Origin: Alphaproteobacteria bacterium
GTDB lineage: Bacteria > Pseudomonadota > Alphaproteobacteria > UBA7887
Assembly: GCA_030739735.1 (NCBI GenBank)
Contig: JASLYQ010000022.1
Span: 1-49,322, forward strand
Direction of reading: 5' to 3'
Length of the DNA stretch: 49,322 nt
In this document: positions 23,452 through 39,023 of the stretch, piece by piece
Layout of the letters: every line of letters starts with the position of its first letter
How positions within the stretch are numbered: the first letter of the stretch is position 1
Made by a program: the position numbers and the translations under genes
Notes under the pieces: model-generated
Told to the model about the DNA's origin: nothing
Databases searched by the model: none
Seen by the model: only the letters and a program-made list of their open reading frames with translations

Positions 23452-23777
23452 CAGGGCTCTCTGCTCTCTTTCTCGGTGATACCAGAAACGCCTTCGCGCC
23501 GCGCCAGCTCTTCGAGCACGTCGTCCGGCGCGATCCCAGCATCAGCCCACAGAATCATCAGGTGAAAGAGCAAATCGGCACTTTCCGCCACCACCGCCTC
23601 ACGGTCGCTGGAGACTGCGGCAATAGCGCATTCAACCGCCTCCTCGCCGACCTTCTGAGCTATCTTGGTCCTGCCCTGGCCGAAGCGCTTGGCGACATAG
23701 GAGGTCTCAGGATCGCCGCCCTTGCGCGCTTTAATCACCTCTTGCAGGCGCGCGAGAATGTCCGCCGCGTCAGCCAT
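23451..23777 (-). CDS. hisE: Phosphoribosyl-ATP diphosphatase
   Basis: Removes diphosphate from phosphoribosyl-ATP, the second step of histidine synthesis. It is a 108-residue MazG-like helical protein with the metal-binding KVGEEAVE (E45, E46, E49) and [10 protein letters not shown] motifs. The ATG at 23777 gives the family start [11 protein letters not shown] and overlaps the end of hisI by eight bases; the upstream extension lies inside hisI. Its own stop overlaps the start of the HIT gene. Confidence 0.96.
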
Positions 23778-24186
23778 AGAGCGTCTCCGGCGGCACCAGC
23801 ACCGGCGTGATCTCTGCGGCGCCGTTGTCAAGCGCGGTGAAAAAGCAGCTGCGCCGGCCGGTATGGCAGGCGACGCCGGTCTGGTCGACCAAGGCCAGTA
23901 GTGCATCGCCATCGCAGTCGACCCTAAGCGAGATTAGCCGCTGGATATGACCCGAGCTCTCGCCCTTGCGCCACAGGGCGCCACGACTCCGCGACCAATA
24001 GCAAATACGCCCCGTCGCCAGCGTCTCGGCCACTGCCTCGCGCGTCATCCAGGCGAGCATCAGCACCTCGCCCGTGTCGTGCTGCTGCGCGATCACCGAA
24101 ACCAAACCGTCGTCATTGAAAGCGATGCGGTCGAGTATGCTGTTGTCCATACGAGGCTGGCTAACAGATTTATCTGCGGGTGTCAT
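23770..24186 (-). CDS. hisI: Phosphoribosyl-AMP cyclohydrolase
   Basis: Opens the adenine ring of phosphoribosyl-AMP, the third step of histidine synthesis. The 138 residues contain [19 protein letters not shown] (62-80), the magnesium-binding DCDGD (90-94) and the zinc cysteines C91, C107 and C114. It is separate from hisE, as in most alphaproteobacteria, and overlaps it. Start choice is uncertain: the ATG at 24186 has GGAG directly against it, while the ATG at 24150 (MDNSILDR) has no clear site but resembles relatives. Confidence 0.95.
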
Positions 24187-24488
24187 CTCCAGGCGAGGAT
24201 GGCGAAGACGCGGTCAGCCCCGAGACCGGGTTGGTCGGGAAGCGGTTCGCAAGCAAGCGCGTGTGGTCGGCATCAAGGCACGCCACTTGCTCGGGTGACA
24301 GCCTGGTGCTGATACCGGCCCTGGCGCACGCACCCGGCCGCGCCATGCTTTGTGGGGGCTGGTCTACGTCGTAAGAAAAGGTCTCCAGCAACGTGTTCGG
24401 AAAAGTACACCAGAGGCCTATTAGACCAGACGGATTCGCACCTTACCCGAGAGGCAACAATACGCGGACTTGGGCAAAGACATCTTCC
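24187..24488. other. 302-base spacer between hisI and the methyltransferase
   Basis: I see no convincing gene here. A minus-strand frame at 24170-24391 encodes 73 residues, but it has no recognisable motif and overlaps hisI. No tRNA-like fold or good terminator is visible. The hisI promoter should be in it. Confidence 0.4.
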
Positions 24489-25529
24489 TTATTTTTTTAC
24501 CGCCAACACCGTGAAGCCTTCGCCGATGATACTGCGCTGGATGTTGGCGCTGAAGCCCGCCGTTTGTAGCAAAGTTTCCTGCTCCTCGCGGGTAGGCACG
24601 ATGTTGCCCCAGGTGAGCTCTTCAAAGCCGGTCTGCACGGGGAAAAGGAAGTCCTTCTCGCGGGCTTCGGCAAGCGTCGTCGGATAGGTCTCGTCGATAA
24701 TCATCAGCCAGCCACCCGGCCCAAGCGCACGATAGCAGGCGTTGATGACACTTTGGCGCATGGGTTGCCCGATCTCGTGAAGCACCTCGACCATGACCAC
24801 CGCATCAGCCGCACCTTCCAGCACGGCTGTGGCGACATTGCCTTCGATTAGCTGCACGCGATCGTCCAAACCGGCGGTGGTAATAGCCTCGCGCGCGGCC
24901 TTCATGCCAGTGGGGTCGATATCGACACCGACGCATTTAGCCTCGGGGAATGCCTTAGTGATCTGCAACAGATGGCGGCCCATGCCGCAGCCGACTTCGA
25001 GCACGGTCCCACCCGCGTCAAGCCGGTCCTTGAGACCGTCTAGCTCAGGCAACAGTTTGCGCGTGCTAAGCACCTGCAAACCAGTAGTCGAGTCCGCAAC
25101 GGCCATGCCGAAGGCCTCGCTGCGGCCCTGAAAGGGTACCGTCGCGCCATCGCGGAAGGCCTTGAGGCAGAAGCGGTGGTCCTCTGTCGCGTGATCGGTG
25201 CCGAGGCGCACATAGGCGCCGAGATAGCGCGGGTGCCCAGGCTTGGCGAGAATCTGGTCCATGTGAGGGCCAAGGCGCCAATTGCGCGTCTCATTGTCGG
25301 CCTCGAGCAGCCCGAAGGAATAGGCCGTGACGGACCAAGTCTCGACATAAGGCACATGCAGAGAAAGCCGCTCGGCCAGCGCCCCGGACGAGATACCCGG
25401 CTCCGCCTCGATCGCCTCGAACAGCCCCAGGCGGACGCCGATATCGATCAGATGCATGGCATTGAAACCACGCCGCCATTCAAAAATTCTGGCGACTTGA
25501 TCATCCGGTGTTGGTGTTTCTTGCGACAT
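24489..25529 (-). CDS. SAM-dependent methyltransferase with N-terminal helix-turn-helix fold
   Basis: A 346-residue class I methyltransferase. Residues 20-95 form a winged-helix dimerisation domain as in O-methyltransferases; residues 176-186 (VLEVGCGMGRH) are SAM motif I, GVDIDPTG (201-208) is the acidic loop, and EVLHEIG with GPGGWLMIIDE follow. Substrate unknown; small-molecule O- or C-methylation is most likely. The start is the ATG at 25529 after GGGAG. A perfect 18-base palindrome lies 30 bases upstream, so the gene probably has its own repressor or activator. It stands between hisF and hisI, where alphaproteobacteria usually keep histidine genes together, and so looks inserted. Confidence 0.9.
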   Translation of the reverse strand: MSQETPTPDDQVARIFEWRRGFNAMHLIDIGVRLGLFEAIEAEPGISSGALAERLSLHVPYVETWSVTAYSFGLLEADNETRNWRLGPHMDQILAKPGHPRYLGAYVRLGTDHATEDHRFCLKAFRDGATVPFQGRSEAFGMAVADSTTGLQVLSTRKLLPELDGLKDRLDAGGTVLEVGCGMGRHLLQITKAFPEAKCVGVDIDPTGMKAAREAITTAGLDDRVQLIEGNVATAVLEGAADAVVMVEVLHEIGQPMRQSVINACYRALGPGGWLMIIDETYPTTLAEAREKDFLFPVQTGFEELTWGNIVPTREEQETLLQTAGFSANIQRSIIGEGFTVLAVKK

Positions 25530-25558
25530 GGCCGTTTCTCCCTTCTTTATGCAGTCGG

Positions 25559-25576
25559 CCACATTTCGAAATGTGG
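25559..25576. promoter_or_regulatory. Perfect 18-base palindrome, operator candidate
   Basis: CCACATTTCGAAATGTGG reads the same on both strands over all 18 bases. Its end is 29 bases from the methyltransferase start codon, between the expected promoter and the ribosome-binding site, the usual place for a dimeric repressor. No regulator gene is adjacent. Confidence 0.6.
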
Positions 25577-25699
25577 TCTACACCATAAGTCGATGGTTGC
25601 CACAGACTAAGCAATTACCCGTCTTTGTCCGTCCATATGCTCGTCGCATTTGATTCTTGGTAGGAATGAGCCGTCACTTCTAAGCTCATCAAAACGAGC

Positions 25700-26458
25700 T
25701 CACACCTCTCTCACCGCCACGCCGCCATTGGCCATATGCGCCTTAGCCTCGGCTATCGAATATTCGCCGAAATGGAAGATCGACGCTGCCAGCACGGCGC
25801 TGGCGTGACCTTCAGTGACACCTTCGATGAGGTGGTCGAGAGTGCCGACGCCGCCCGAGGCGATAGTCGGCACGGGTACAGCATCGGCGATTGCGCGGGT
25901 CAGGCGCACGTCGAAACCCATGCGGGTGCCGTCGCGATCCATCGAGGTAAGCAGGATCTCACCAGCGCCGAGATCGACCATCCGGCTGGCCCATTCCACC
26001 GCGTCGATACCAGTGGCATTACGTCCGCCATGGGTGAAGACCTCGAAGCCGTCGCCCCGGCCTTTGGCATCGATGGCGACGGTGATGCATTGCGAGCCAA
26101 ACTTAGTCGCAGCTTCCGCCACCAGCTCAGGTCGGTTGACCGCAGCCGTATTGATAGAGACTTTGTCAGCACCCGCGAGCAACAGGCGGCGCACGTCGTC
26201 GACCGCGCGCACCCCACCGCCGACCGTGAGCGGCATGAAGCACTGCTCAGCGGTGCGCGCGACCACGTCGAGAATAATATTCCGATTGTCAGAGGAGGCG
26301 GTAATATCGAGAAAGCAAAGCTCGTCGGCACCCGCCGCGTCATAGAGACGCGCTTGTTCGACTGGATCACCGGCATCGACCAGATCGACGAAGTTGACCC
26401 CCTTAACCACCCGCCCGTCTTTGACGTCAAGGCAGGGAATGATGCGCACTTTTAACAT
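25700..26458 (-). CDS. hisF: Imidazole glycerol phosphate synthase, cyclase subunit
   Basis: Together with HisH it turns PRFAR and ammonia into imidazole glycerol phosphate and AICAR. The 252-residue TIM barrel has the catalytic D11 ([14 protein letters not shown]) and D130 (VAIDAKGRG), plus the phosphate loops GGGVR and ASGGVG. The start follows the hisA stop by three bases. A weak AGCTC/GAGCT hairpin lies after its stop codon, without a T-tract. Confidence 0.98.
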
Positions 26459-38342: not shown

Positions 38343-39023
38343 TCAGTTCCGTCGCCAAACGGGCTTTTTCAGGGTTTCGATAAAGGCGTCATGGGCGGCG
38401 AGCTCGTTAGCGTTGGCGGTGTGGGAGCGAGGCGAGCGCGGCTGCCGGGTGCTGCGAGCTGCTATGGTGGCCGGTTCGGCAGCAGCTGTCTCCGCTAGAT
38501 TGAGACCCGCCTGACGGCCGCCGACTAGCTCCACATAGACATCGGCCAGCAACGCCGCATCAAGCAGGGCACCGTGATGGGTGCGAGCCGAGTTGTCTAT
38601 GCCGAAATGCTTACACAGAGCATCGAGACTCGCCGGCGCGCCGGGAAATTTTCGCCGTGCCATTTGTAGGGTGTCGATCGCACGTGCCGTGTCGATGGGT
38701 GGGTGGCCGAGGCGCTCAAACTCCGCATTGAGAAAACCGAGATCAAAGCTCGCATTGTGGATCACCAGCCTAGCATCGCCGAAAAACGCTTCCATCTCTG
38801 CGACAATTTCGCCGAACAGTGGCTTGCCCGCAAGATGAACGGTACTGATGCCGTGGATGGCCTCGGCCTCCGCCGGCACCTCGCGCTCAGGATTGATGTA
38901 ATGGTGAAAGCTTTCACCAGTGACGGCTCGATTAATCAGCTCTAGGCAACCGATCTCGATGATACGGTCGCCGCCACGAGCATCAAGGCCGGTGGTCTCG
39001 GTATCGAGAACAATTTCACGCAC
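38343..39023 (-). CDS. dnaQ: DNA polymerase III epsilon subunit (proofreading exonuclease)
   Basis: 3'-5' exonuclease of the replicative polymerase. The 226 residues have all DEDDh catalytic residues: D7 and E9 (LDTETTGLD), D94 (HNASFDLGFLN), H150 and D155 (HHGALLDA). A basic C-terminal tail follows. The GTG at 39023 overlaps the end of coaE by eight bases. Order coaE-dnaQ is conserved in alphaproteobacteria. Confidence 0.97.
   Translation of the reverse strand: MREIVLDTETTGLDARGGDRIIEIGCLELINRAVTGESFHHYINPEREVPAEAEAIHGISTVHLAGKPLFGEIVAEMEAFFGDARLVIHNASFDLGFLNAEFERLGHPPIDTARAIDTLQMARRKFPGAPASLDALCKHFGIDNSARTHHGALLDAALLADVYVELVGGRQAGLNLAETAAAEPATIAARSTRQPRSPRSHTANANELAAHDAFIETLKKPVWRRN

Follow-up and report, generated by a model that had tools for sequence, protein, structure and literature searches.

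Dimeric repressors of the TetR, ArsR, Rrf2 and similar families have palindromic operators. For proteobacteria, PMC5343134 gives palindromic motifs of 15-25 nt for most of the regulators studied, and the NadQ site as ttATRCTCannntGAGYATaa. According to PMC4239095, the sites of MetR, SahR and SamR are palindromes of 15-24 bp, located before genes of methionine/SAM metabolism.

The site analyzed here is a palindrome standing before the gene of a SAM-dependent methyltransferase, within a stretch of DNA of 49,322 nucleotides, the whole of which is hereafter named the window. An earlier note on this DNA had read the palindrome as an operator for a dimeric regulator.

Palindrome and extended dyad

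Direct reading of the sequence shows that CCACATTTCGAAATGTGG, at positions 25559-25576 (no strand assigned), is a perfect 18-bp palindrome, whose four central bases, TCGA, are symmetric as well. Both the coordinates and the perfect symmetry of the 18-base palindrome that the earlier note had placed upstream of the methyltransferase are thus confirmed. This palindrome forms the centre of a longer, imperfect dyad of 42 bp (25547-25588, no strand assigned), detected by a repeat finder as an ungapped inverted repeat with arms at 25547-25567 and 25568-25588. The arms are 81% complementary, with 17 of 21 pairs matched and a self-match of 81% over 42 bases, and they end in TTATG and CATAA. The core is located 30-47 nt upstream of the methyltransferase ATG (25529), between hisF and the ribosome-binding site, inside the 170-bp gap that separates the two genes (25530-25699, minus strand). 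By consensus, no sigma-70-type promoter was found around the dyad, and no intrinsic terminator (G+C-rich stem followed by a T run) on either strand of the 25450-25750 interval.

By itself, the 18-mer is not improbable, and is ordinary in a 49-kb window. Base composition (pair probability 0.264) leads to about 0.31 perfect palindromes of at least 18 bp per window, while a first-order simulation gave 0.5, at least one being present in 23 of the 60 simulated windows. A second perfect 18-bp palindrome, TGGTGAAAGCTTTCACCA, is indeed found in the window at 38902-38919, within an ORF (38343-39023) that we take to be dnaQ. Twenty stretches of 20 kb sampled from the same genome, 400 kb in all, contained none, for 2.5 expected.

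The extended dyad behaves differently. It ranks first in the window, with a log-odds score of 24.6 against 18.6 for the next best, in a scan of centres of 0 or 1 base only. Since this score was reached in none of 60 second-order simulated windows, the symmetry of the full 42 bp is probably not due to chance, the evidence being moderate because the dyad was already known when the score was designed. In the 400-kb sample, 4 places reached the same score, two of them apparently A+T-rich, so that dyads this strong occur roughly once per 100 kb. An inverted repeat beyond chance, as expected for an operator, is therefore found in the 42-bp dyad and not in the 18-mer alone; the claim that the palindrome is unlikely by chance does not hold for the 18-mer, and does hold once its flanks are counted.

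Other long dyads were seen on contig C1 of the same genome. One, of 60 bp with 28 of 30 pairs (L050:3329-3388, i.e. C1:103329-103388), lies between convergent ORFs and overlaps both their ends; no further copy of it was found in a genome search. Another, hairpin-like and 81 bases long (L045:11087-11167), lies outside ORFs of at least 150 aa, and its first 30 bases recur at C1:250628-250657 with 97% identity.

Genomic context of the methyltransferase gene

The gene downstream of the dyad (24489-25529, minus strand) encodes a class I SAM-dependent methyltransferase of 346 aa (Pfam Methyltransf_25, 3.2e-17; Methyltransf_2, 2.4e-15). Its mechanical ORF starts at GTG 25562, inside the palindrome; the start codon was taken as the ATG at 25529-25527, which is preceded by a ribosome-binding site, AAGGGAG, recognized by eye at 25538-25544. 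By sequence, its closest solved structures are TnmJ (8g5s) and 5f8c, and none of the best 25 of the 43 NCBIfam models matched was above cut-off. The upstream gene, whose stop codon ends at 25700, is hisF (25700-26458, minus strand; Pfam His_biosynth, 6.6e-87); synteny and identity distinguish it from hisA. The downstream gene is hisI (23770-24186, minus strand; Pfam PRA-CH, 2.5e-34, and synteny).

In 6 of 8 other members of the family, the genes after hisF are hisI, hisE and that of a HIT protein, with no intervening methyltransferase. The remaining two, G003 and G002, have other sequence after hisF; in G003 (L085, from 2260 on), it is an ORF on the opposite strand whose product resembles, by eye, a metallo-beta-lactamase-fold protein. 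The best relatives of the methyltransferase within its own family are 42-44% identical. Relatives at 67-69% identity are found in Arenicellales, unclassified proteobacterial, gammaproteobacterial and Sneathiellales MAGs, and relatives at 69-70% identity in 2 of the 384 other genomes of the class that were searched; the viral contigs searched contained no relative of the protein. To judge from these comparisons, the segment 24187-25699 was probably inserted between hisF and hisI. Horizontal transfer is the likely route, given the hisF-hisI adjacency in the family and the fact that the nearest homologs belong to other orders and classes. As 6 of the 8 other family members have no methyltransferase gene at this place, and near homologs are patchily distributed, the gene could plausibly have a control of its own. 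A 16-nt direct repeat was also reported by the repeat finder, at 24360 and 25574 (81%); we rejected it as a mark of the insertion target, as its size is, by our estimate, that expected by chance in 1.5 kb.

Search for further copies and counterparts

The earlier note had suggested looking for the same palindrome in front of other genes. No second copy of the 18-mer exists in the genome when up to 2 mismatches are allowed; a single site with 3 mismatches is found, on contig C11, directly after what appears by eye to be a tRNA 3' end. With the 14-mer core, at up to 2 mismatches, one further site was obtained in the genome, against one for the control. Compared to its own genome, the 170-bp leader matched itself and otherwise just a 19-base stretch, at E 0.73.

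The search was extended to 60 genomes, own included, and at up to 2 mismatches the 18-mer was found in its own genome alone. Among 385 genomes of the class (own included), 9 contained the 18-mer with 2 mismatches or fewer, against 11 for the reversed control, the latter being counted by us from the table. Eight sites lie outside its own genome, and all of them overlap mechanical ORFs of 90 aa or more. The exact 18-mer was absent from the viral contigs searched, and the literature searched yielded no mention of the 14-mer core. An operator may be expected to recur in front of other genes; no such copies were found at up to 2 mismatches, but a regulator with a single target would need none.

Conservation in relatives was the other expectation, and it did not materialize: a comparable dyad was present in none of 17 homologous leaders, all from outside the genus. 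These correspond to 12 of the 14 loci of a first homolog set plus L065, L066, L067, L004 and L006. Two loci with too little DNA or a fragment only (L005, L042) and the 38-42% identical homologs (L068-L075) were left out. For each leader, 220 bases up to the start of the protein match were scored, which includes some coding sequence. All scores were at most 12.8, and the best was reached in 4 of 40 of its own simulated sequences, whereas the leader of the window, scored in the same way, had 20.9, reached in 0 of 40. An identical dyad was obtained for the Sneathiellales locus L040 and for L065, whose genome belongs to the class of the window; the two are probably one sequence, which points to Alphaproteobacteria as that class.

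A plainer scan, requiring exact arms of at least 6 bp in 13 loci, gave one perfect dyad with 8-bp arms, of different sequence, in L041, where the leader has 70% G+C and the dyad lies 167 bases before the protein match. Arms of 6 bp were found in L034, L036, L038, L040 and L041. None of these short dyads was counted as a counterpart: for L034, L038, L040 and L041, which were also scored against simulations, between 8 and 28 of 40 simulated sequences equalled the best dyad of the leader.

A candidate operator

The best explanation we can offer, and we offer it tentatively, is that the 42-bp dyad with its 18-bp core is a private operator for a dimeric repressor. The dyad would be a DNA site specific to the methyltransferase gene, bound near a presumed transcription start by a repressor encoded elsewhere, and the bound repressor would block transcription of a gene apparently inserted into the his operon. 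This reading is supported by the dyad score, above that of all simulated windows, by the intergenic place of the dyad, before the ribosome-binding site, by the symmetry kept in the four central bases, and by the palindromic motifs that most proteobacterial regulators studied in PMC5343134 have. Against it stand the lack of a second site, of counterparts in homologous leaders, of an excess over the reversed control, of a linked repressor and of a promoter in the searches made here. The operator proposed in the earlier note is partly supported: it is strengthened by the position and by the symmetry extending through the centre and out to 42 bp, and weakened by the absence of a genome copy at up to 2 mismatches and of a comparable dyad in the homologs examined.

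The accompanying remark that no regulator is encoded nearby agrees with the Pfam scans, in which no DNA-binding repressor family was found among 19 proteins of the window. These 19 are part of its gene set and include Rho, an AlgH-like protein and a kinase/pyrophosphorylase; cut-offs were 1e-3, 1e-5 and 1e-10, at which weak matches are missed. At most, the symmetric site is an ordinary candidate for a switch acting on a single gene. Should it prove to be an operator, it would illustrate how a gene probably inserted midway in a biosynthetic operon acquires private control, and the 42 bp could serve as bait in a search for the regulator. In the other case, it illustrates how ordinary a perfect 18-bp palindrome is in a 49-kb window, and the case for a function rests on the extended arms.

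Other explanations

It is also quite possible that the site has no present function, and is either a chance palindrome or a scar, left by the insertion of the methyltransferase gene or by quasi-palindrome correction during replication. A single copy and no counterparts, be it in the 59 other genomes or in homologous leaders, are allowed by a private operator as well as by an absence of function. The 0.3-0.5 perfect 18-mers expected per window, of which another one is present inside an ORF, go in the direction of no function, as does the location of the gene at a probable insertion point. What the chance hypothesis accounts for less well is a 42-bp dyad unmatched in simulations and located in a leader rather than in coding sequence. 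As to an insertion scar, no repeat marking the insertion was seen, the one at 24360 and 25574 being chance-sized.

The symmetry might instead serve in RNA. A stem-loop formed by the dyad in a hisF-methyltransferase transcript would protect the mRNA or alter how accessible the start codon is; the right arm has two possible partners, the left arm and the start codon region, which would give two exclusive states. We consider such an element rather unlikely. The 18-mer is predicted to fold with 7 pairs and a 4-base loop (-6.3 kcal/mol). The 42-nt RNA of the minus (coding) strand reaches -12.2 kcal/mol (z -2.76), as good a fold being obtained in only 1 of 200 shuffles, which argues for the element; however, a better fold is predicted for the opposite strand of the dyad, which is antisense to the gene (-15.2, z -4.31), and none of 200 shuffles equalled it. 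In predicted folds of the leader, an alternative pairing (25526-25564, minus strand) joins 25556-25564 (AUGUGGCCG, part of the right arm of the palindrome) to 25526-25534 (CGGCCAUGU, over the start codon). This helix dominates the predicted ensemble of the leader and is present in its predicted minimum, and the ATG is hidden to the same degree in only 19 of 400 spacer shuffles, which again is in favour of an RNA element. The stability of the whole leader, in contrast, is unremarkable (z -1.0), 311 of 1000 spacer shuffles being at least as stable.

A hairpin, moreover, needs no symmetry in its four loop bases. The TCGA centre is symmetric though unpairable in an RNA hairpin, which supports a feature at the DNA level; by our arithmetic, two symmetric central pairs have a chance of about 7% (pair probability 0.264). 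Because the symmetry runs through this unpairable centre, and because the non-coding strand gives the better fold, a DNA-level feature is favoured over an RNA one. Known RNA families brought no help to the RNA explanation: with 301 bases searched on both strands, Rfam returned a single match, at E 3.6, which lies elsewhere than the dyad and falls well short of its gathering score, and no model of a SAM/SAH riboswitch or of another known leader RNA matched. The lack of a terminator and of comparable dyads in the 17 homologous leaders also goes against it.

Both ideas may be combined in a translational switch, in which pairing of the right arm with the left arm would leave the start codon free, and pairing with the start codon would close it, the same DNA being also a protein site. 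Two layers of control would then exist for a methyltransferase inserted inside the his operon, but this model, built on predicted folds, seems to us very improbable. A mobile palindromic unit (REP or MITE-like) spread over the genome is the least credible explanation, and is largely ruled out by the single copy: other long dyads do exist in the genome, such as the 60-bp one on contig C1, but the leader has no match beyond itself apart from the weak one of 19 bases, and two stronger dyads of the genome, used as queries, did not match the 42-bp dyad at E up to 0.01.

Comparison with described regulator sites

The dyad may be compared to the sites of MetR, SahR and SamR, which resemble it in being palindromes, of 15-24 bp, placed before methionine/SAM genes (PMC4239095). 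The motifs quoted there were compared to the dyad by eye. The MetR motif ATGAA-N5-TTCAT is absent from the 42 bp, as is the MetJ motif AGACGTCT, and so is ATC-10-GAT, common to SamR and the gammaproteobacterial SahR sites (PMC4239095). The NadQ site (PMC5343134) shares with the dyad the outer TTAT and ATAA ends, whereas the inner half-sites and their spacing differ by eye.

Unlike operators of dimeric repressors, the dyad has no second site within 2 mismatches, lacks a counterpart before the homologs examined and matches none of these described motifs, and its cognate regulator is putative. Like them, it has a perfect core with an even centre, flanked by weaker arms, and stands in the leader of a single gene.
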